Source: Methanobacteriales archaeon HGW-Methanobacteriales-1
Lineage (GTDB): Archaea; Methanobacteriota; Methanobacteria; Methanobacteriales; Methanobacteriaceae
Direction: 5' to 3'
DNA length: 64,000 nt
Assembly (NCBI GenBank): GCA_002839705.1
Contig: PGYO01000003.1
Span: 1 to 64,000 of the forward strand
Position numbers and translations under genes: made by a program. A model generated the notes under the pieces. It made no database searches, was not told the DNA's origin, and was given only the letters and a program-made list of their open reading frames with translations. Shown here piece after piece: positions 49,450 to 63,764 of this stretch. Positions within the stretch are counted from its first letter, which is position 1, and the number at the start of each line of letters is the position of its first letter.

Positions 49450-49842
49450 TTAAATAGATGGGTGGGTTAATTCCACAGGTAAAAGAATAATTACTCCTAA
49501 AAGATCATTCTTTTTTATGGATCCATCTACAGCTGCTACAAACATAGCATGATCTACATGTCTATCTAGACTTATTGGTAAAGGAGTTTCTTCACCAACA
49601 GCAATGGTATGACCTTGTCTGTTTGATGCATAAGCTGAAATAAAGAAAATGTAGTTGGCTGGAATACTGATATCTTTAATTTTAACAGGTATTGATTCAC
49701 CTGATTTAAAATCAACTTCTTCCTCTGCAACAACTGCTCGGAGATTGCCCGAAATTGTTCCAATTTTAAAGTCCACCAGTTCATCCTCATATTCTTTAAT
49801 GTCCTTTTTAACCGCACCTAAACGGGTTAGTATTCGAACCAT
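49450..49842 (-). CDS. DUF22 family protein, tenth cistron of ATP synthase operon
   Basis: A 130-residue beta-rich protein resembling DUF22, a methanogen family without known function. Visible segments are FKIGTISGNLRAVVAEEEVDFKSGESIPVKIKDISIPANYIFFISAYASNRQGHTI in broad outline and a C-terminal GVIILLPVELT. Its ATG overlaps the atpD stop (TAATG), so its translation is coupled to subunit D. The position suggests a link to ATP synthase assembly or regulation, which is inference only. Confidence 0.65.
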   Translation of the reverse strand: MVRILTRLGAVKKDIKEYEDELVDFKIGTISGNLRAVVAEEEVDFKSGESIPVKIKDISIPANYIFFISAYASNRQGHTIAVGEETPLPISLDRHVDHAMFVAAVDGSIKKNDLLGVIILLPVELTHPSI

Positions 49843-50486
49843 TACTCCATCTCCATGGATTTTTTAATCATTTTTAATCGCACGAAGTTTTCCCTTTCCA
49901 TCTCTTCAAGTCTCATTTCAATATATTTAACCGTATTTTCAAGACGCGGAATAATAATATGTTCCAACGCATTTACACGACGTTTAGTAGACTCGATTTC
50001 ACTGGCCAGAAGAATAATAGTTTTTTCTATTTCTCCCAGTTCAATGATGAGGGCAATGGACTCTTCGAACTTTTTAGCAGCTTCATCCAATTTAACTGAA
50101 GTGTCTACAAAGCCGTAACCTCTTTCCACAACAGTTCTCTCTGGAGAAGTGCTAGATTCAACTACAGGAACTACTACACCCATAATACTTCTGGAATCAA
50201 TATCAACTTCTACTGATTCTTTTACAGATAAAGCTGCTTTGTTGACTGCTAAATCACCCATAATAACTTGAGATGCAGTTAAATCTTCAAAAGCCTCTTT
50301 CAGTTTTTCTTCCACATTTTCACGGGATCCTTTTACCCTTTCTAAAATGTTAAAGAACTCCATAATAAGGGCATTTCGCTTTTCTTTTAAAAGACTGTAT
50401 CCTTTAACAGCGAGTTTTTCCCTGTCTTTAAGCTTCAAGAGCTCCATACGGGTGGGGTTGATCCCTTCAATCATTTCTTGTGCCAT
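49842..50486 (-). CDS. atpD: A-type ATP synthase subunit D
   Basis: Central-stalk subunit of the A1 rotor, 214 residues and largely coiled coil. Typical regions are [33 protein letters not shown] at the N-terminus and the C-terminal [39 protein letters not shown] helix. AGAGGGAT precedes the ATG. It follows atpB by 29 bases and overlaps the DUF22 cistron by one base. Confidence 0.95.
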
Positions 50487-50515
50487 TTTATCCCTCTAAA
50501 AAAATAGTAAAGGGG

Positions 50516-51916
<1,401 letters not shown>

Positions 51917-51918
51917 TT

Positions 51919-53673
51919 TTACACCTCAGCACATTGTTTGACAATTTTTTCCTGGATTTCCTTTACAGCAGTTTCAAATTCATCTTCAGCAATAAATTTC
52001 ATACGACCGATATCTTCTTTAACAGAAAGGTTAATGATGTCTGCAGAAGGAGCTCCTCTTTCCAAGGCAGCTGTTGCCTTATTTTGGAACATAACAATAG
52101 TTTTGAGCATTTGATATTGTTTAGCAGGAGAACAGTAAGTATCCACTTCGTGATATGCATTCTGTTGTAGGAAATCCTCCCTAATCATACGACTGGTTTC
52201 TAAAGTAATTCTTTCCTTATCAGGTAAAGCATCAGGTCCTACCAGTTGCACAATTTCCTGAAGTTCAGATTCTTTCTGGAGGAGGATCATAGCTTGATCT
52301 CTGGTTTCTCTCCATTCATCTCCTACATTACCAGCCCACCAACCTTGTACGCTATCCACATATAATGAGTAACTTTGTAACCAATCAATGGAAGGGAAGT
52401 GACGTTTATCTGCTAAAGATGCATCTAAAGCCCAAAATACTTTACAGATACGTAGAGTATTTTGAGTGACTGGCTCAGACAAGTCCCCACCAGGAGGTGA
52501 TACTGCACCTACTACAGAAACAGACGAAGTTTTATCTTCAGTTCCTACAGTAGTTACTCGTCCAGCTCGCTCGTAGAATTGAGCTAATCTAGAAGCTAAG
52601 TAAGCAGGATATCCTTCTTCACCAGGCATTTCTTCTAACCGTCCGGAAATCTCCCGCATAGCTTCTGCCCATCGAGAAGTTGAGTCAGCCATTAGAGCTA
52701 CATCGTAACCTTGATCACGGAAGTATTCTGCAATAGTAATTCCAGTGTATACACATGCTTCCCTTGCAGCCACAGGCATGTTAGAGGTGTTAGCGATTAG
52801 AACAGTTCGGTCCATGAGTGGTTTACCGGTTTTTGGATCTTCCAGTTTTGGAAACTCTTTAAGTACCTCAGTCATCTCATTACCACGTTCACCGCATCCT
52901 ACATAAACAACTATGTCTGCATCAGCCCATTTAGCCAGTTGCTGTTGAGTTACAGTTTTACCTGATCCGAAAGGACCGGGTATAGCAGCTGTTCCTCCCT
53001 TAGCAACAGGGAAAAAGGTATCTTGTGCTCTTTGACCAGTTACCAGAGGTATATCTGGGTCAAGTTTGGATTTGTATGGTCTTCCTTTTCTTACAGGCCA
53101 TTTTTGCATCATTTGAACTTTTTCAGTTCCTTTAGAGGTTTCCACTTCAGCAATATCATCTACTACAGTGTATTCACCTTCAGCAACAATGCTTTTTATA
53201 GTTCCTTCCATCATTGGAGGGACTAAAATCTTTTGAAGAACTGCTGATGTTTCCTGAACTTCTCCTAAGACATCCCCACCTAAAACTTTTTGACCTGCTT
53301 TAGCTACTGGTTTAAAAGTCCATTTTTTGTCCTTTGGAAGGGATGGTACATCTAATCCTCTTTCGATATAATCTCCAGATATTGCCTTAATAGTTTCCAG
53401 AGGTCTTTGGATACCATCAAAGATAGATCCAATGATACCTGGACCTAATTCTACAGATAAAGGTCCTCCAGTACTTTCCACCACTTCACCAGGCTTTAGA
53501 CCAGCAGTTTCTTCGTAAACCTGAATGGTTGCAGTGTCACCGTCAAGCTCAATGATTTCTCCAATAAGCTTGTAGTCACCTACTTTAACCATTTCATTCA
53601 TTTGGGTTCCTCTCATCCCGTCTGCGACGATAACAGGACCCGCGATTTTAATAATTTTTCCTTCAGTAATCAT
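51919..53673 (-). CDS. atpA: A-type ATP synthase catalytic subunit A
   Basis: Catalytic subunit, 584 residues. The archaeal P-loop is [12 protein letters not shown], preceded by the bulge (non-homologous) domain at about 110-190 with [19 protein letters not shown]. Also seen are [34 protein letters not shown] and [21 protein letters not shown]. There is no intein in the P-loop region. It overlaps atpF by four bases (ATGA) and is followed three bases later by atpB. Confidence 0.98.
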
Positions 53674-53993
53674 TTTACCATCTCAACCCCAATAACTCGT
53701 TTAATTAGATCTCCCATCGGGTCGACAGCCCTATCAGACGGGCCAGATTTGTCTGGAATTTCTATTATCATGGGTAATGTATTTGATTTGGTGAATCTAT
53801 CAATGAAATCTCTAATTTCATCACCAATTTTTTCAGTTATTATGATTATGGAAACATCTTTTTCTTTTATGATGTAGTCCAAAGTTTCTTCTGCTTCCTG
53901 TGATGTTTCAACCACATGACCTTCTTTAATGCCTCCTAATTTGAAGCCAGTCACGGTATCCACATCAGCAACTACTGCCATAGATGATTTCAC
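53670..53993 (-). CDS. atpF: A-type ATP synthase subunit F
   Basis: A 107-residue central-stalk subunit with a CheY-like fold, modulating ATP hydrolysis. Typical text is [22 protein letters not shown] and [22 protein letters not shown], with [16 protein letters not shown]. It overlaps both neighbours by four bases, consistent with tight translational coupling. Confidence 0.95.
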
Positions 53994-55147
53994 ACTAACA
54001 TCTCCTTAATCATAGCAGCAGGGAAATTTGCTTCCCGTTTACCACGAGCAATAACTTTTAAATTCCTAATTTCATTCTCTTTGCGGTTTAAGAAACCAAT
54101 CATAGGACCTGCTCCAAATGGCTTTTTAACTGCGAAGTTTCTAGCCATTTTAGTTAGGTAGATATCTAAATCTTTTTCAAATGAAGCAATGGAACCCGTT
54201 TGAGTATATCCATTTAGAGCTTCAGATAGTATTGGTGCATAATCAGTACCTTCCATGGCACTAACCACCGCACTAACATCTTCAGCTTCCATTAAATCCT
54301 TAAGTTTCCAATCCCGTATTTGGTAACCATTAGAAATCATGTAAGGACTGATATCATCATATTTTAAGCCATCGACTTTTGCTCTGAGGATAATCTTTAG
54401 ATTGGTTATATCAACCTGAGAACCTATATAGATGTGAACTAAACTACTGTTATCATCAGCAGGATTGGCAGATGCTCTTAAAAGATTTTCCAGATAGTAC
54501 TTATCCAGAGCAGCCTCTAATGGAAGAACCATTTGGGTGTTCTGGTATGCTGGAAGTGCATCTTCTAGAACTTTAGCATAATCCGTGCCTTCTAATGCAG
54601 TTATAATATCAGTTACAGAATTTACTTCAGATAATTGTCCTAAATCGTCTTTAAGGTCTCCGAAAGGTATTAATAATTCCATAGTCTTTTCAGAGTTTAA
54701 ACCTACTTCTTTAGCAGTTATTACACTTTTAATGTTTCTGATATCCCATTTCTTTAGTAATGCTCTAAACACTGGCTTTATATCACCAGGTGCAATTCGA
54801 GCAACTAAATCATAAGTGTCTGCCAGTTGAGCATCCAGTGCTTTTTCCAAAGGATATTTATCCACATATTGTGCATACTCTGGAAATCCTCGAAGATAAT
54901 TCTGAACTTCGTCCAGGTTATCAGATTCCAGGATTTCAGAGAGTTGTTTTTCTGAGAATAAACGTCCGACTCTGGCTCTAACTCTAGCATTGGGATAAGC
55001 ATATGGAAACAAATCCAGGAGTGGCCTTATAGTAACTATTACGACAATAGCTCCAATTATGGCCCCGCCCAAAAGTAGTACTGCTATAAAAGCTTCTACA
55101 GAGGGGAAACCTAGTGCAGTTACAATTGCAGTTATGCTTTCAACCAT
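53990..55147 (-). CDS. atpC: A-type ATP synthase subunit C
   Basis: Subunit C, homologous to V-ATPase subunit d, joins the central stalk to the membrane K ring. The protein is 385 residues with repeated helical units (for example YPNARVRARVGRLFSEKQLSEILESDNL, IRNIKSVITAKEVGL and the C-terminal GFLNRKENEIRNLKVIARGKREA). The N-terminal 25 residues form a hydrophobic helix, longer than in most bacterial relatives, which may anchor it. It lies 15 bases downstream of atpE. Confidence 0.95.
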   Translation of the reverse strand: MVESITAIVTALGFPSVEAFIAVLLLGGAIIGAIVVIVTIRPLLDLFPYAYPNARVRARVGRLFSEKQLSEILESDNLDEVQNYLRGFPEYAQYVDKYPLEKALDAQLADTYDLVARIAPGDIKPVFRALLKKWDIRNIKSVITAKEVGLNSEKTMELLIPFGDLKDDLGQLSEVNSVTDIITALEGTDYAKVLEDALPAYQNTQMVLPLEAALDKYYLENLLRASANPADDNSSLVHIYIGSQVDITNLKIILRAKVDGLKYDDISPYMISNGYQIRDWKLKDLMEAEDVSAVVSAMEGTDYAPILSEALNGYTQTGSIASFEKDLDIYLTKMARNFAVKKPFGAGPMIGFLNRKENEIRNLKVIARGKREANFPAAMIKEMLV

Positions 55148-55162
55148 GCATTATCTCCCCTA

Positions 55163-55786
55163 TTAATTAAATAGAACTTTAGCAACCTCTGAACGTAGAG
55201 ATTTCTTAAATCTTGACATTCTAGACTCTATAGTGTTATTAACCTCAATTTCTCCATTTTTGGTTTTAACAACAGCCCCACCAATAGTATTTATATTCTC
55301 TCCAATTGCAAGAGTAGTTTTAATACCAGTTTGAGCTTCAACGTCCTTTGCAATAGTGTCAATTGAGTCCTTTATTTTATCCACATCCTCAGCTTTAAGA
55401 TGAACTATCACTTCTCCACCGCCAACTTCTAAAGTTGCTTCTTTGACGATTTCCACTAGTGATTTTTTATATTCATCAGAAGAGGAAGATGCAATCTTGG
55501 TAAGATCATCTTCTGCCTGTTTAAAGGCGTCTTCAATTACTTCTTCTCTGGCCTCCAATTCTGCCCGACGAGCATTCATTTTTGCTTCTGAGATTAATTG
55601 CTGATATTTCATATTGGACTGCTTATTAGCTTCATCCAATATTTTCTCATTTTCTGCCTGGGCCTTTTTTTGGCCTTCTTCCAGAATCAAATCAGATTCT
55701 TTCTGGGCGTCCTGAATAAAAACATCAGCTTTACTCTGAGCGTCGGACAATATGCTGGAGACAATTTTATCTGCCCCTGAGCTCAT
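55163..55786 (-). CDS. atpE: A-type ATP synthase subunit E
   Basis: Peripheral-stalk subunit of 207 residues. The N-terminal 100 residues are a long alanine- and glutamate-rich coiled coil that pairs with subunit H, and the C-terminal globular part (VGGGEVIVHLKAEDVDKI to GGAVVKTKNGEIEVNNTIESRM) binds A and B. AGGAGG precedes the ATG. Confidence 0.95.
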   Translation of the reverse strand: MSSGADKIVSSILSDAQSKADVFIQDAQKESDLILEEGQKKAQAENEKILDEANKQSNMKYQQLISEAKMNARRAELEAREEVIEDAFKQAEDDLTKIASSSSDEYKKSLVEIVKEATLEVGGGEVIVHLKAEDVDKIKDSIDTIAKDVEAQTGIKTTLAIGENINTIGGAVVKTKNGEIEVNNTIESRMSRFKKSLRSEVAKVLFN

Positions 55787-55799
55787 TTTAATTGTCCTC

Positions 55800-56285
55800 C
55801 TATCCTAAGATTCCGCCGAATACCATGAGCAAGATAGCAATCAAAAACCCGTAAATAGCCTGAGTTTCAGGCAGAGCTGAGAAAATAATACCACGAGCAA
55901 ACATATCTTCGTCTTCTACTACTGCACCTACAGAGGATGCCGCAGTAATACCTTGACCCATACCTGAACCGAGACCAGCAAATCCTATAGCTGCACCAGC
56001 ACCAATTGCTATTAACCCTGCAGTAACACTTAGTGAGCCGGACCCACCCAGTAAACCAGAGAATACTAGTAAAAGAATAGCAATCAAAAACCCGTAAATA
56101 GCCTGAGTTTCAGGCAATGCAGAGAAAATAATACCACGAGCAAACATGTCATTATCTTCGGCAACTGCACCTACACTTCCTGCTGCTGCTATACCTTGTC
56201 CTAAACCTGATCCTAACCCAGCAAATCCTACTGCCACACCGGCACCGATTGCTGCTAATGCTGTTCCTAAAGCTACTTCAACCAT
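55800..56285 (-). CDS. atpK: A-type ATP synthase proteolipid subunit K, duplicated
   Basis: The membrane rotor proteolipid, 161 residues, made of two fused hairpins of 81 residues each. Both halves keep the ion-binding glutamate in SALPETQAIYGFLIAILL, the form known from Methanothermobacter, so each hairpin can carry an ion. Proton or sodium specificity cannot be decided safely. The two halves are nearly identical in DNA over long stretches. AAGGAGGT precedes the ATG. Confidence 0.95.
   Translation of the reverse strand: MVEVALGTALAAIGAGVAVGFAGLGSGLGQGIAAAGSVGAVAEDNDMFARGIIFSALPETQAIYGFLIAILLLVFSGLLGGSGSLSVTAGLIAIGAGAAIGFAGLGSGMGQGITAASSVGAVVEDEDMFARGIIFSALPETQAIYGFLIAILLMVFGGILG
55834..56150. 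repeat. Internal 243-bp direct duplication in atpK
   Basis: Segments starting at 55834 and 56077 repeat with 243-bp (81-codon) spacing. The first 34 or so bases are identical, and synonymous sites are conserved further along as well, for example through the LPETQ codons. The degree of silent-site identity suggests recent gene conversion between the halves. Confidence 0.7.
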
Positions 56286-56290
56286 ATTTT

Positions 56291-58264
56291 TTACCTCCTT
56301 ATTTTCGTGAAACTTCTTTCAGCGCGAAAAGCTTCAAATCTAATTTTACCACCCATATAAAATTGGGCAAAGAATTCTACATAATGTAAACGCAATGAAT
56401 TAATAAATGCACCTAAACTCTGGAAAGCAAGGTTTGCAATATGTCCTCCAATGAATATTATTGGAGCTAGTATAATTCCAATGACGGGTATCATTTCATA
56501 ACTTAATCCAGTTAAAATGTTAACTGTCATGGCTATCCCTCCTGTTGAAAGACAAAGTGCCAGAAGCCGGGCATAAGATAATAAATTACCCAAGAACCCC
56601 GTAAGATCCATAAGACCAAACATTCCATTGAAATATATAAGCATTGCAATTGCAATTAACACTAATGGGCCTGCAACATACAGTCCTCCAATTAAATAAA
56701 GGACAATTCCTGCTTCAAGTATAAACCATACTATCTGAGTACCCAAGGCAGCATTCATATCACCTGCACGGATATTATTAATTGCACCTATAATCAGACC
56801 TAAGTTAATATGTATAACTCCAACAATTAAGGCAAAAATTAAAATATTAGCCGGGTTTACAAATGCATCAATAGCCGGTATAACCGTCGGTAAGGTAATA
56901 CCTAAATATTTCGGGAATAAATCTCCAATGAATCCATTGGTAAGCATACCCATGATAAAGGCCCATACACCACATGCAATCAGAATAATTCCAAAGTTTT
57001 TCATGAATGGATTAACCTTACCCATCCCCCTATAAAGGACATATCCCAATAGAGCATCAATTATACCGTAACCGGCATCAGTTAGACAGAAACCAAAGAA
57101 AAATGGGAATACTATGGCCATAAGCATAGTTGGATCAATTTCATTGTATTTTAAAGGAGAATACATCTCCACAAAATTTTCATAAGGTTTAGCAAAGCGC
57201 GGATTGTCCTGTAAAACAGGCACCTGATCATCTTCTGGAACTTCAGATTCAACAACCGAATGTCCATCAGTGGATTTTTCAATCACATCTAAAGCAGATT
57301 GTTGCTTTTTCTCTGAAACCCATGCTTCAAACATTACAGTTTTCTCTGTTTCTCCAAAAGAAGCGAATATTTCATTCCGTTCTTTCTCAATTTCCAGTTG
57401 TTCTTTTAAAACTAAAAGCTCATCTTCCCATTTAGCAGAGACTTCTTGCAATTCAATGACTGCAACTCCTCTTTCCTGAGCAATGGCTTCCAATCTTGAA
57501 TTTGAACTGGATATTATATCTTTTGGTTTACCAGACAAGCCAGAAATTTCGAATCTTTCGAATTCGATTCTTCTCAATATTCCGGCGATATCTTCACCAT
57601 ATTTTTTTAAAGTTATGATAATAATAGTTTTTTCAGTTTTAGCATCGCCATCGGCTTCTAAAACTATCAATTCATCAGTAACTTTGACAGATTCATCTTG
57701 GAACTTATCATAGCTTTCCAGTGAAATTTTACCTGCCATTATAGAGACAAATTCAGAACTACTTAGTTCTGATAAATCAGCATCAAAATTAATTAATTTT
57801 TTAGACACATTTAGATTGGTTTCAATCTCACTTTTTTCACTGTCAAGAGCAGCGAGCTTTTCTTCTATACCCTTAGTAAGCGACTCTACCTGGTTTAAAA
57901 CCGATTCTGCCTTAGAAAGAAGGCCATCAGTATCAAGTTCTTCAATTTCTCTCTTTTCAAAAACAGGGGGATTAATAAATCCTTTAATGGTTTGCATCAT
58001 ACTTTTTTCAGGAACTGCGGTTCCTAAAAAGTCAGCTATTCCAGTTGTTTTCATTAAAAGAGAAGCGATTTTTCCAGTTTGTGGAGTTACTTTAGAAGGT
58101 TTTAGAATTTGAGCCCATTCTGCATCTTGCTGAATACGTTCAGATATATCATGAATCTGTACGATACCTTCCTCGTGCAGCGAGCGCACGGTGGAATCAG
58201 CGTACTGATCCAGTGTTATTATTTTTAATTTACGCATCCTTGCTGGCAAGAACATGGTACTCAC
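56291..58264 (-). CDS. atpI: A-type ATP synthase subunit I (a-subunit)
   Basis: A 657-residue stator subunit. The N-terminal half is a cytoplasmic domain with long coiled coils (about 90-330); the C-terminal half (about 370-640) has seven or eight membrane helices that conduct ions against the K ring. Typical segments are PFFFGFCLTDAGYGIIDALLGY and NLLSYARLLALCLSTGGIA, with the arginine (YARL) opposite the rotor glutamate. It starts at GTG 58264 two bases after atpH; ATG 58255 is an alternative. Confidence 0.95.
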   Translation of the reverse strand: MSTMFLPARMRKLKIITLDQYADSTVRSLHEEGIVQIHDISERIQQDAEWAQILKPSKVTPQTGKIASLLMKTTGIADFLGTAVPEKSMMQTIKGFINPPVFEKREIEELDTDGLLSKAESVLNQVESLTKGIEEKLAALDSEKSEIETNLNVSKKLINFDADLSELSSSEFVSIMAGKISLESYDKFQDESVKVTDELIVLEADGDAKTEKTIIIITLKKYGEDIAGILRRIEFERFEISGLSGKPKDIISSSNSRLEAIAQERGVAVIELQEVSAKWEDELLVLKEQLEIEKERNEIFASFGETEKTVMFEAWVSEKKQQSALDVIEKSTDGHSVVESEVPEDDQVPVLQDNPRFAKPYENFVEMYSPLKYNEIDPTMLMAIVFPFFFGFCLTDAGYGIIDALLGYVLYRGMGKVNPFMKNFGIILIACGVWAFIMGMLTNGFIGDLFPKYLGITLPTVIPAIDAFVNPANILIFALIVGVIHINLGLIIGAINNIRAGDMNAALGTQIVWFILEAGIVLYLIGGLYVAGPLVLIAIAMLIYFNGMFGLMDLTGFLGNLLSYARLLALCLSTGGIAMTVNILTGLSYEMIPVIGIILAPIIFIGGHIANLAFQSLGAFINSLRLHYVEFFAQFYMGGKIRFEAFRAERSFTKIRR

Positions 58265-58266
58265 AA

Positions 58267-58581
58267 CTACAAAACACTTTTTATAATAATATTGGCCGCC
58301 TCGGCAACCTTGCCCTCAGATTGTGTTTTAATTTTTTGCACATCTGTTTGGGCACGATTAGATATGTGTACAGCTTCAGTTTTAGCATTAGATTCTGCTT
58401 CAGAAATAGTAGTCTCAGATTGCTCTTGAGCCTCAGTTTTAGCTGTCTTCATCATTTCCGCGGATTTCGCCTTGGCTTCATCGATCATTTCAGATGATTT
58501 TAATTTTGAATCTTCTATTAGTTTATTAGCATCATTTTCAGCTTTCTTTATCGTAGTAATAGCTTCCGATATTGTTATCAT
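58267..58581 (-). CDS. atpH: A-type ATP synthase subunit H
   Basis: Peripheral-stalk coiled-coil subunit of 104 residues, pairing with subunit E. The sequence is alanine/lysine/glutamate-rich with right-handed-like hendecad periodicity (IEDSKLKSSEMIDEAKAKSAEMMKTAKTEAQEQSE region). The frame opens at 58593, but ATG 58581 follows GGTGG by six bases and is taken as the start. It is the first gene of the operon. Confidence 0.9.
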   Translation of the reverse strand: MITISEAITTIKKAENDANKLIEDSKLKSSEMIDEAKAKSAEMMKTAKTEAQEQSETTISEAESNAKTEAVHISNRAQTDVQKIKTQSEGKVAEAANIIIKSVL

Positions 58582-58614
58582 TTGAACCACCATGGTATAG
58601 CAAAATATATTTGC

Positions 58615-58935: not shown

Positions 58936-59784
58936 TTAATCTCCAGCATTTCTCACATTTAAATCGTGAACCGGCGTAGCAGTTCTATCTTCAATTCCAT
59001 CATAGTATATTTCATCTGCATCAAAAAATTTTCTAAAATCAGGCTCTCTTACCTTTTCTTCATAAACATGGGATATTAAACCGGGTAGCCTACCAATCAT
59101 GAATATTCCAGTTCCAGTTCTCCAATCAAAACCCATATCGGATAATATGCCTGCATTGGCTCCATCAATATTCATTTTTATGTCTTTCATTTCTAAAAGT
59201 ATTTCTTGGACAGCAATGGCCAACCGAGTATGAGAACCCGCACAATTTTGTTCTTTAGCCATTTCAATAAGACGGGCCGCTCGAGGATCTTCACTGTGAT
59301 ATCTATGACCAAACCCTGGAATTTTAATGCCTTTTTTTAGATAATCATCTACAAAACGTTTTGCAGTAATGAAAATATCTTCTTCAGGATTTGATCTCTG
59401 GATAGCATCTTGAAATGCTTTCATGGACCTTTCAATGGCCCCCGCATGGTTTTTACCAAAAGCTAAAAGACCTCCAGCAATGCAAGCGTGAACTGGAGAT
59501 CCCGCTGAAGCAATCATTCGTGCTGCTTGTGTACTGGGAGGAGTTACTCCATGATCACAGAATGAAACCAGTACCGAACCAAGCATCTTAGATTCTTTTT
59601 TAGATGGCATTTCACCTTTTATCAGAAGATAAACCATCTCTGAAAAAGAAACATTACCAATTAAATCTTCTTGGGAATATCCTCTTGTTATTATACGATT
59701 AGGTTCCACCTTTGTTATGGAAGTTCTCCATTTAGGATTACTAACCTTGAAAACGTTCTCTAGTGACTCTCTTCCTATTGCCAT
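58936..59784 (-). CDS. Short citrate synthase-family protein (citryl-CoA lyase-like)
   Basis: A protein of 282 residues, much shorter than normal citrate synthase (370-430), resembling proteins annotated as citryl-CoA lyase. The catalytic histidines appear as GSPVHACIAGG (H99) and PGFGHRYHSEDPRA (H160), and the acidic residue as NIDGANAG (D207). It probably makes or breaks a carbon bond between an acyl-CoA and an oxo-acid. The frame opens at 59817 but ATG 59784 with GTGGTAAT upstream is chosen. It is the last of four minus-strand genes with related chemistry. Methanogens of this order usually lack a full citrate cycle. Confidence 0.78.
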   Translation of the reverse strand: MAIGRESLENVFKVSNPKWRTSITKVEPNRIITRGYSQEDLIGNVSFSEMVYLLIKGEMPSKKESKMLGSVLVSFCDHGVTPPSTQAARMIASAGSPVHACIAGGLLAFGKNHAGAIERSMKAFQDAIQRSNPEEDIFITAKRFVDDYLKKGIKIPGFGHRYHSEDPRAARLIEMAKEQNCAGSHTRLAIAVQEILLEMKDIKMNIDGANAGILSDMGFDWRTGTGIFMIGRLPGLISHVYEEKVREPDFRKFFDADEIYYDGIEDRTATPVHDLNVRNAGD

Positions 59785-60129
59785 GATTACCACACATCCT
59801 ACTGTGGCGAATATCAATAATAATCCGCATTTATTGTTGGTTTTAATGGATAATTAATGATAAAACGAATTTTTATCACCAAATAAATCCAAAGACCAGA
59901 TATTAATATGAAATTAATTTAAAAGTTTATAATCGGTTTATAACTAGCATAAAGAATATAATAATTCCAATAACTTGAATTAATCTGATATATTGCATTT
60001 ATTTACGAAATATAAAACAGATACAACCATTAAATATTATTTATCATCCTTATCTAATCATTTAAATTTCTAATTTGATTGAAGTTTAATCTTATTAAAG
60101 TAAATCAATTTAAAAATCTTAAAAATTCT
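59785..60129. other. AT-rich spacer
   Basis: About 340 bases between the fumarase-like and citrate-synthase-like genes. It contains TATA-like text on the minus strand but no gene. A separate promoter for the downstream gene is possible. Confidence 0.4.
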
Positions 60130-60972
60130 TTAAATTTCAATCAAAGCTCTTCTAGGTTCTACACAGCAGCAAGGCCTCATGGAAACAATTCTAACTCCAC
60201 TGGCCCTTTGAGGTCCGATTTTTACAAAAGACCCTAAAGCTGTTGAACCTCCCCCCAGTCCAAGCGGACCCACCTGAGCATCATTAATAGAATCTGTAAT
60301 GTAATTTTCAATATCAGACTGTTTATTTAAGTTCCCATAGGCCATTGCTTTAATCATTAATGAAATTGCCTCAAAATGAGTCCTGCCAATACCCACTGCT
60401 GGGATGCATGGAGTACACCCTAACATTGGAACCTCTGATTTGAACCATGTTACAACTTCCTCAAATACTTTTCTATTATCTCGCTTATGGAAAACTCTAT
60501 AAGTACTGGCCCTTATTTCTGGCCCACCTCCTAACATTAAAATATGAATTTTGGTTTGTTTTCCAGGAATAGAATCCATTAAGATTGCAGGTGAGCTTAG
60601 CTTTCCCGGATCTTCAAATAGGCCTTGACTCTGTTCAATTCGCTGAATATCATTCCCTTTAACTGCCATTGGCCTTGCTGGAAGCTCCTGTAATCCAAGT
60701 TCAATACCAGATTTAATATCTTTTAAAAAAGCAACGGGGAGTTCTGAATCATCACCCACTTCAATTAAAACATGAGGAATCCCAGTATCATCACATAAAG
60801 GCCTTTTTACAGCCTCAGCAATTTTTGCATTTTCCAGGAGGATATTTAAAACCCAAGCAGCATTTCCATTAGTTTCTTGAGAAAGTGCTCTTTCATAAGC
60901 ATCTATCTGATCCTGACGATAAGTTGTGCTGGCTTCAATAACCGCTTCCTTAACTTTATTAATCAAATCCAT
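60130..60972 (-). CDS. Class I fumarase/tartrate dehydratase alpha-like subunit
   Basis: A 280-residue protein of the fumarase alpha (TtdA/FumA N-terminal) family, which forms a [4Fe-4S] hydro-lyase with a beta subunit. Cysteine regions are KRPLCDDTGIPHV (C59 region), MLGCTPCIPAVGIGRTHFEA and the C-terminal MRPCCCVEPRRA. The usual GKGGGSENK-like motif is changed to LMLGGGPEIRAST, so this is a divergent member. No beta subunit gene is adjacent. AAGGAACGAT precedes the ATG. The likely reaction is hydration or dehydration of a hydroxy-dicarboxylate. Confidence 0.8.
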   Translation of the reverse strand: MDLINKVKEAVIEASTTYRQDQIDAYERALSQETNGNAAWVLNILLENAKIAEAVKRPLCDDTGIPHVLIEVGDDSELPVAFLKDIKSGIELGLQELPARPMAVKGNDIQRIEQSQGLFEDPGKLSSPAILMDSIPGKQTKIHILMLGGGPEIRASTYRVFHKRDNRKVFEEVVTWFKSEVPMLGCTPCIPAVGIGRTHFEAISLMIKAMAYGNLNKQSDIENYITDSINDAQVGPLGLGGGSTALGSFVKIGPQRASGVRIVSMRPCCCVEPRRALIEI

Positions 60973-61117
60973 GAAATCGTTCCTTAAACAATATTATGCC
61001 TAAAAATATTATAATTTATAAACTTAGATATTTGCTGAAATGTTCTTGATTATCGTATATATTAGTATTATATTATAATTCGATTTATAAAATAACAAAA
61101 ATGTTGTTTTTAATCTA

Positions 61118-62029
61118 TTACCTCAAAACAGGTATCGCCAGATCAGATGGGCCCTTACCAGACATTTTAGCTTCAGGATAATATCTTAAAATCATGGATT
61201 GTACTAAAAACACTTGTCTAATCCTTTCACGGGCCTGTGTTTCTGTAGTGTCCCAGCCATGGTGGCCTGCTACTGCCCCTCCAGTCTTGAGATAAACCGG
61301 TGAAACAGCTCGAATAATATCTGGAGCTTCATAATGACGTATAAATCCTCCAGAAGATTTAGGATTTTCGGTGTGAACATCTATAGAGATATCTATAGCG
61401 TCCCTAAGTGATGCCAGCATATTAATTTGAAGATCCCTAACTGGATTAAATGAATCAGCCCCAATTTCTTCTAAAAGTTTGGCTGAAGCAGGATTTCCAT
61501 GGCCAGTATGGGCAGATATCTTGAAGTGAACATCTTCTGGAATCTCACCTTCATTTCGCATTTGATTTAGGGTCCATAAAAGGCCCTCATCATAAACTAC
61601 GATTCCCCTAACACCCAGAGAAATTGCCCTTTTTACATCTTCAATAGCATATAACAAATTATTATATCCTCTTAATCGATATCCAATCCTGGCCCCTTCT
61701 TTAGTTTGTGCAGAAGCACTGGTATCATAGACCGCTCTAGGTCCTACACTTAAAAAGAGTTCAAGTTTGGCTTCTCTTGCGAAATCCGTCATTTCTTCAA
61801 TTTCAGAGTCCGTCAAAAGCATTATTCCTTTGGTCTGAGTAACCCGATGCACTAAGACCTGAAATTCATCCATGGCCTCAATTAGGGATCCCATGGCACC
61901 AGGTTTTTGAATCCCCGGAACTTCAAATCTGTATTGTGCACCATCTTTGAATCTTTTTTGAGATGTATAAGAACTGCTAATATCCTCAGTTATTCCTATT
62001 TTTTCTAAAAAAGTCTTTGAATCTTTCAA
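61118..62029 (-). CDS. U32-peptidase-like TIM-barrel protein
   Basis: A 303-residue protein resembling U32-family (collagenase-like) barrels, a fold also used for non-protease chemistry. Seen are LGVRGIVVYDEGLLWTLNQMRNEGEIP, KISAHTGHGNPASAKLLEEIGADSFNPVRDLQ and DISIDVHTENPKSSGGFIRHYEAPD, with conserved H, D and E that may bind metal. The frame opens at ATG 62056, but TTG 62029 is preceded five bases earlier by a perfect GGAGGTG, so it is the better start. The genes around it act on carboxylic acids, so a metabolic enzyme is more likely than a protease. Confidence 0.68.
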   Translation of the reverse strand: MKDSKTFLEKIGITEDISSSYTSQKRFKDGAQYRFEVPGIQKPGAMGSLIEAMDEFQVLVHRVTQTKGIMLLTDSEIEEMTDFAREAKLELFLSVGPRAVYDTSASAQTKEGARIGYRLRGYNNLLYAIEDVKRAISLGVRGIVVYDEGLLWTLNQMRNEGEIPEDVHFKISAHTGHGNPASAKLLEEIGADSFNPVRDLQINMLASLRDAIDISIDVHTENPKSSGGFIRHYEAPDIIRAVSPVYLKTGGAVAGHHGWDTTETQARERIRQVFLVQSMILRYYPEAKMSGKGPSDLAIPVLR

Positions 62030-62327
62030 TATCCCACCTCCATTTATTTTATCCAATTTAGGTATGAGATTTAATAAAAGTGATTTAAATAAATTAATAA
62101 TTTCAGTTTTGGTAATTAATTAATTTTTATATAATTCGGAAATTGGATTTTTAATTATATATTATATAAAATATTTGGTTGTAATAATCCATCAAATAGT
62201 TCTATTAATATAAAATGTAAATGAAATTTATTTTAGAGAGAATATTGGGAATTAAAAGACTTTAAGCATTTAAGGAATATAATTAGGCTATTTTTTAACA
62301 TTTAATAATAAATTAGCCACTAAATAG

Positions 62328-63764
62328 TTATTTTTTAAAATCTATCATGAAATCTTTTACTTTAACTAAAGGTAATTCATCAATTGAATTTAGATTAAAT
62401 GAATTAAAATCAGAATTTAACAAGTAAAATTTCGCAAAAATCTCCTGTTTGGTGAAAGGATTTTCAGGTTCTCCTTTAGGTAAAAATTTAGTCTTTTCTA
62501 GAACCAAATTATTCCCTCCACCAGTAGTAGTATTGAGATTATAATTATTGAATCCATTAACCATTTGTAAGCCTTTTTCAAATTCAATTATAACTCTTGA
62601 AGGTCTTTTTTGAGGTTGAAGATTATTTAATTCCTTACTAATCTGAATTTCAACTTTATCTGCAATTTTTAAGATTTTTTCCTTAAATTCCAGATTGTTT
62701 TCAAACTCTTCAATATTTTCTAGTGTTAATTTTCCCTTAGTCAACACCATAGCCAGACTAATAGGTAAACTTTGGCGAACAGATTCTGCAGCCATAGGGC
62801 AATAATTATCGTGTTCAGCTGCCGTTTTGTAGGTTTGAACGGTTATTTTCTTGATTTTTTGATTATCAATAGAAGAAATATTTATTTCATTCAAAATATC
62901 TACTGCAGAGTCAATGGTAGAATGTAGATGCCTGCAAACAGGATATTTTTTTAAGTAAACATTTTGAATGTGAAATTGACCCAATTCCAAATTAATCTGA
63001 TTTGCTATTTTAATAGAATTCTCAAAAACTTCTTCTCCACCAAGAGCCTTGAAAAATCCTTCTTTGCCTTCCACTATGCTTTCAGCACCGGTGAATCCCT
63101 TTTGTGATAGAAGAGCAGATATCATCCCAGATTGAACTGCTCTACCTGCATGAAGGTGTTTACCCATGGTACCGGCGTGATCCGATTCTAGAAGACCTGA
63201 TGCTTGGGTTCCAGCCAGACCTAAAGCATTTATAGTTTTTTCAAAATCCAAATTCAGAATTTTAGATGATGCAGCAGCTGCAGCAAAGGTTCCTATAGTT
63301 CCAGTACTGTGAAACCCATTATTGCGGTGTGATGGATTAATTGCTTTTCCCAGTACTATAGCTACCTCATATCCTGCTACTATTGCTTCTAAGAATTCTT
63401 TTCCATTTTTATCTTTTTCTTCTGCCAGGGCCAGGGCCGCAGGAATCACAGTACAACCTGGATGCAGCTGAGCTAAACGATGCCCATCATCCAGATCCAG
63501 ACAATGAGCCGAAATCCCATTTAAAAACCCAGCATTGAGAGCATCTCCATTTTCATGGCCAATAATAGTTGATTTAAATTCAAAATTAAAACTTGAATGG
63601 AAATTAAGAACTTCAAAGGCAATTAAACTACTTTTCTCTTGAGAACCTCTAAGTGAAACACCTAAAAAATCCAAAAAACATAACTTGGCCTTTTCTATTG
63701 CTGAATCAGGTATATCTTCATATTTTAAAGAAACAATAAAATTTGCTAGTTCTTTAGTAATCAT
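62328..63764 (-). CDS. MmgE/PrpD family hydro-lyase or decarboxylase
   Basis: A 478-residue protein of the MmgE/PrpD family, which includes 2-methylcitrate dehydratase, cis-aconitate decarboxylase and iminodisuccinate epimerase. Typical segments are FLDFLGVSLRGSQEKS, AFLNGISAHCLDLDDGH-like text (NGISAHCLDLDDGHRLAQLHPG), NGFHSTGTIGTFAAAAAS and KHLHAGRAVQSGMISALLSQKGFTG. Unlike the unrelated aconitases it has no iron-sulfur cluster. AGGTAGTTT precedes the ATG. It is first of the four-gene set that ends with the citrate-synthase-like gene. Substrate unknown. Confidence 0.85.
   Translation of the reverse strand: MITKELANFIVSLKYEDIPDSAIEKAKLCFLDFLGVSLRGSQEKSSLIAFEVLNFHSSFNFEFKSTIIGHENGDALNAGFLNGISAHCLDLDDGHRLAQLHPGCTVIPAALALAEEKDKNGKEFLEAIVAGYEVAIVLGKAINPSHRNNGFHSTGTIGTFAAAAASSKILNLDFEKTINALGLAGTQASGLLESDHAGTMGKHLHAGRAVQSGMISALLSQKGFTGAESIVEGKEGFFKALGGEEVFENSIKIANQINLELGQFHIQNVYLKKYPVCRHLHSTIDSAVDILNEINISSIDNQKIKKITVQTYKTAAEHDNYCPMAAESVRQSLPISLAMVLTKGKLTLENIEEFENNLEFKEKILKIADKVEIQISKELNNLQPQKRPSRVIIEFEKGLQMVNGFNNYNLNTTTGGGNNLVLEKTKFLPKGEPENPFTKQEIFAKFYLLNSDFNSFNLNSIDELPLVKVKDFMIDFKK

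Follow-up and report, generated by a model that had tools for sequence, protein, structure and literature searches.

A vertically inherited gene module of Methanobacteriota, probably for a polycarboxylic acid, and its possible role in making the methanofuran tail

Four minus-strand genes of Methanobacteriales archaeon HGW-Methanobacteriales-1 form a real, ancient and vertically inherited module that, on the genomes sampled, is specific to the phylum Methanobacteriota. They were found in the window, that is, the whole 64,000 nt stretch of DNA analysed (positions 1 to 64,000 of contig PGYO01000003.1). Together with a fifth gene outside the window, which codes for a divergent Fe-S hydro-lyase beta subunit (beta') and lies behind mfnA, they make up a vertical, mfnA-linked five-gene module that we regard as well supported. 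As for its product, we give an even chance to the four genes being an ancestral Methanobacteriota operon that makes 1,3,4,6-hexanetetracarboxylic acid (HTCA).

The four open reading frames lie in series, as the earlier note had described. They code for an MmgE/PrpD-family protein (62328..63764, minus strand; PF03972, 1.3e-74, and PF19305, 2e-20), a U32-like TIM-barrel protein (61118..62056, minus strand), a divergent class I Fe-S hydro-lyase alpha subunit, hereafter alpha' (60130..60972, minus strand; PF05681, 1.5e-53), and a short condensing enzyme of the citrate-synthase/citryl-CoA-lyase type, hereafter the CS-type enzyme (58936..59784, minus strand; PF00285, 4.7e-45). Three of the family calls made earlier hold in Pfam; the U32 call holds at most at the level of fold, the protein having no profile match. 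The CS-type reading frame extends to a TTG at 59817, and the start is likely the ATG at 59784, since the orthologues begin at MAIGxESLE. The gaps between the genes measure about 145-345 bp, in agreement with the 140-350 bp previously given for this genome. Scans for sigma-70 promoters and terminators returned nothing above shuffled sequences, and such models do not apply to archaea.

Downstream of the four genes, and outside the module, lies the A-type ATP synthase operon (49450..58593, minus strand), a conserved neighbour that is syntenic in the compared loci. The region of this operon has 36-41% G+C (window 50001-58000), while most of the window stands at about 30%, and the proteolipid gene of the operon (window 55800-56285) is a tandem duplication of a hairpin unit within one gene.

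The gene order beside the A-ATPase operon is fixed in all four Methanobacteriota families sampled. Precisely, the series tiaS - PrpD - U32 - alpha' - CS - ahaH - ahaI is seen in each of the three families of the order, interrupted by insertions in certain genera and lacking an adjacent tiaS in one family (f3), and tiaS - PrpD - U32 - alpha' - CS is also present in the sole representative of the fourth family (G120), which we take to be Methanothermus fervidus. In the latter, the PrpD and U32 genes overlap, about 8 bp separate the pair from tiaS on its upstream side, and the remaining gaps are of tens of bases. The wide gaps in the window had been read as a sign of recent assembly; because the same genes are tightly packed in such Methanothermus-like loci, the gaps are a derived feature.

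Among 120 Methanobacteriales genomes, the U32-like protein was found in 103 and the MmgE/PrpD protein in 102. The CS-type gene follows the same distribution, apart from a few gaps that fall in fragmented assemblies; alpha' was separated from the canonical fumarase alpha subunit by identity. A single genus lacks the whole block of four genes, in all 17 of its sampled genomes; we take it to be Methanosphaera, including M. stadtmanae DSM 3091 and strain BMS. In a wider set of the phylum (n=152), the other genomes listed as lacking the U32-like protein are all incomplete, three genomes not being listed. The set is present in M. thermautotrophicus delta-H. Outside the phylum, coverage of archaea comprised M. 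jannaschii, M. acetivorans and 26 Methanosarcinales genomes. In the M. jannaschii and M. acetivorans controls no protein exceeded the cut-off of the CS subfamily and PF03972 was not found, and the U32 profile found nothing in the 26 Methanosarcinales genomes. For every protein of the module, pairwise distances and those of the neighbouring AhaI are correlated (r 0.88-0.93), congruence being assessed by distance matrices. The earlier note had named independent vertical genes with no co-occurrence as the outcome that would speak against a module; inheritance is indeed vertical, but co-occurrence is strictly conserved.

The CS-type enzyme scores 453 bits against the NCBIfam citryl-CoA lyase subfamily NF004866 (cut-off 245), and its best solved relative is the citryl-CoA lyase 6hxp (3e-62), with which the catalytic His, His and Asp align. 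Both the profile score and these three residues place it in the citryl-CoA lyase/citrate synthase superfamily. It shares with the Hydrogenobacter-type citryl-CoA lyase (6hxp, PRK06224 family) its length, the His/His/Asp residues and homology over 250 residues, whereas the module has neither a citryl-CoA synthetase nor a reductive TCA context, and its partners are the PrpD, U32-like and hydro-lyase genes. A second CS/citryl-CoA-lyase paralogue, 64% identical, adjoins phosphate-transport genes (G000:C4:26715-27509; L144:6716-7510); it occurs in Methanothermobacter-type, f3 and own-genus genomes and was not seen in Methanobrevibacter-type genomes.

The MmgE/PrpD protein carries both domains of its superfamily and the Asp/His/His/Lys/His motifs, which are kept in orthologues, and its closest solved relatives are IDS-epimerase and a B. 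subtilis IRG1-like protein. Against the 2-methylcitrate dehydratase PrpD equivalog TIGR02330 it reaches 43.7 bits (cut-off 458), and against another NCBIfam PrpD equivalog 48 bits (cut-off 575). We propose that it is a dehydratase of a 2-methylcitrate-like tertiary alcohol. The U32-like protein matches neither Pfam nor NCBIfam, the U32 sequence profile included, and its AlphaFold model is a confident TIM barrel (pLDDT 86.9), for which the PDB search ranked the U32 protein Mk0906 first, with a TM score of 0.42-0.51 that is similar to those of other barrels; its neighbours at fold level include methylisocitrate lyase and class II aldolases. It shows a mean column identity of 74% across the order and is rich in invariant Arg, His and Lys, and we propose that it acts on a polyanionic substrate, at a step left undefined.

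For alpha', the score against the fumarase equivalog NF004885 is 111.7 bits, under the cut-off of 276. The protein retains the cluster cysteines, and positions conserved in fumarases, whose roles we presume from the Leishmania enzyme, are altered (PLCQDTG to PLCDDTG, CHT to QRA). A canonical fumarase alpha subunit, with which alpha' is 28% identical, is encoded elsewhere in the genome near the por genes. Archaeal-type class I hydro-lyases consist of an alpha and a beta subunit, and the genome has two beta genes, a canonical one and beta', as divergent as alpha' (G000:C17:14174-14668; L142:9675-10169), which retains RD, TTS and GKG and has Lys in place of Arg after TTS (TTSxR to TTSNK). Having both canonical subunits, the genome leaves no place for alpha' as an ordinary fumarase. 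Because alpha' and beta' are both divergent and both lost from the genus without the module, we infer that the orphan alpha' partners beta'. This putative pair would share with the two-subunit class I fumarase of the M. jannaschii 7xky type the alpha plus beta architecture and the three cluster cysteines; it differs in that the two genes are unlinked and the motifs of alpha' are changed, neither the equivalog score nor the pocket residues being those of a fumarase. The deposited sequence of M. thermautotrophicus delta-H has beta' cut in two by what looks like a frameshift (L257:9510-9999), likely a sequencing error, since the frame of the adjoining PEP synthase is broken too.

The beta' gene begins 189 bp behind mfnA, the gene of the tyrosine decarboxylase that serves methanofuran synthesis (552 bits with TIGR03812). 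An upstream mfnA was found in 23 of 30 loci, comprising all the f2 and f3 loci examined and several genera of f1; in one locus (L151) the two genes overlap by one base, and in the M. smithii-type genus mfnA was not found within 1.5 kb of beta'. A close beta' (48-100% identity) occurs in all genomes outside the presumed Methanosphaera genus except two incomplete ones, and in none within it. The module is thus linked to a methanofuran gene through beta', the four window genes not being mfn-linked themselves. Since the neighbours of the mfnA-beta' pair are conserved too, this linkage may be plain synteny.

HTCA is a pair of C5 units linked through their alpha carbons, and its retrosynthesis comprises a Claisen or aldol step, loss of water and reduction. 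The enzyme types of the module (acyl-CoA/2-oxo-acid condensation, dehydration and Fe-S hydro-lyase) fit this chemistry, for which reason we propose HTCA synthesis; condensation and water loss are the two steps that the module would supply. The CS-type enzyme would attach a C5 acyl-CoA (glutaryl- or glutaconyl-CoA type), through its alpha carbon, to the keto carbon of 2-oxoglutarate; the product, a C10 hydroxy-tetracarboxylate, would have the core of 2-methylcitrate, of which it is in effect a large homologue. The MmgE/PrpD protein, the alpha'/beta' hydro-lyase or both would then remove or move water, and a reductase would saturate the double bond, with the U32-like barrel working on a polyanionic substrate at some step. 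The substrates, the order of steps and HTCA as the product are all putative.

In Methanobacteriales, HTCA forms the typical end of methanofuran and also occurs as a free solute. In a structure of the Methanothermobacter formylmethanofuran dehydrogenase, methanofuran ends in a 4,5,7-tricarboxyheptanoyl group, that is, HTCA (PMC13397495). In its free form, HTCA ranks among the major solutes of the Methanothermobacter Marburg strain (PMC1224877). The six known genes mfnA-mfnF, to which the module is tied by beta' following mfnA in three families, make the core with the first glutamate and not the HTCA terminus, and the enzymes attaching the terminal moieties of methanofuran were still unidentified in 2021 (PMC8141765); a count from 2011 put the number of unknown methanofuran proteins at about seven (PMC3087415). 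No HTCA genes came up in a search of the literature, the 1987 and 1994 HTCA labelling papers and White 1988 lying outside its coverage. The methanofurans of M. jannaschii, M. acetivorans and the Methanosarcinales carry polyglutamate tails. The module was found in the HTCA maker M. thermautotrophicus, and those of its parts that were searched for were not found in polyglutamate makers, on limited sampling and with tail types that we partly presume.

We favour HTCA on the basis of the order-wide co-occurrence of the genes, their loss as a block from one genus, and the position of beta' next to mfnA with the same distribution. Methanosphaera cannot reduce CO2 to methane, and M. stadtmanae has lost the interconversion of methanol and CO2 (PMC7374477). 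That the module with the mfnA-linked beta' is the missing HTCA pathway, made up of a citryl-CoA-lyase-type synthase, two dehydratases and a new barrel enzyme, and was dropped by Methanosphaera as it abandoned CO2 reduction, we put slightly below an even chance. Taken alone, the correlation with this loss is weak, because there is only one loss event. Loss of all methanofuran synthesis in the genus is ruled out by the retention of MfnB. Formylmethanofuran dehydrogenase genes are also kept in M. stadtmanae (PMC3439257), so that the genus probably still makes the methanofuran core and would have lost the tail alone, which counts against HTCA as the product. On the same side we place the lack of a reductase among the cluster genes, the lack of a proven C5 acyl-CoA source, the presence of two dehydratases for a single dehydration, which is more than needed, and the chance that the mfnA-beta' linkage is plain synteny.

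The earlier note had suggested that the four genes jointly process a tricarboxylic acid such as a (methyl)citrate-like compound, and our results support this idea, with substrates that are putative. The families constrain the chemistry and not the carbon skeleton, and the second CS-type paralogue in several genera makes citrate-like products possible. Hence the product of the module could be, instead of HTCA, a different polycarboxylic acid or part of a coenzyme that is confined to Methanobacteriota, for instance a citrate- or aconitate-like acid. We consider this less likely than HTCA, because among the known acids of this kind that typify the order only HTCA lacks known genes, and because beta' is coupled to mfnA.

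Considerably less probable, in our judgement, is the chief alternative with a named pathway, a 2-methylcitrate-type cycle built from partly unrelated parts for the use or removal of propionyl-CoA. Each of its four enzyme types has one counterpart in the module: the CS-type enzyme, whose superfamily includes methylcitrate synthases, would be the methylcitrate synthase, the MmgE/PrpD protein the dehydratase, alpha'/beta' the methylaconitate hydratase, and the barrel, whose model resembles methylisocitrate lyase at fold level, the lyase giving pyruvate and succinate. The condense/dehydrate/hydrate chemistry, an MmgE/PrpD member and a CS-superfamily enzyme are indeed common to the module and the known cycle (PrpC, PrpD, AcnD, PrpB). 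However, the barrel has no sequence match to PrpB or isocitrate lyase, the PrpD equivalog scores fall far under their cut-offs (48 against 575 and 44 against 458 bits), and the module, found in autotrophic archaea, is mfnA-linked via beta'; such a cycle hardly explains this linkage or the strict conservation in autotrophic thermophiles.

The earlier supposition that the four genes may be a bacterial-type catabolic module of recent assembly or acquisition is hardly credible: bacterial homologues exist for each family, but the order-wide vertical conservation, the fixed position and the distances tracking AhaI rule out any transfer short of one predating the phylum. The homologues found on bacterial plasmids do not exceed 41% identity and, where their surroundings could be read, stand in unrelated contexts; sharing no four-gene context with the module, they were rejected as a guide to function. 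The bacterial citryl-CoA lyase clusters have a related CS-type enzyme (31-36% identity), whereas this enzyme is accompanied there by CoA-transferases together with either transporters or aromatic-acid genes, and no PrpD, U32-like or Fe-S hydro-lyase partner was present in the four loci that were read. Where the annotation around plasmid U32-like homologues could be read, it showed either sugar transporters nearby or a cluster of biosynthetic appearance. On an Enterobacter chuandaensis plasmid (L128:10835-23072), a distant U32-like homologue is found within a natural-product-like cluster that codes for an aminotransferase, iron-containing redox enzymes, an M14 peptidase and an MFS exporter.

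Methanofuran is the coenzyme that first binds CO2 in methanogenesis, and the five-gene candidate set makes the question of its terminal group directly testable. On the genomes sampled, the proteins are restricted to a group that dominates methane production in the rumen and the gut and, if HTCA is indeed the product, the set would give a marker of the HTCA-type coenzyme.
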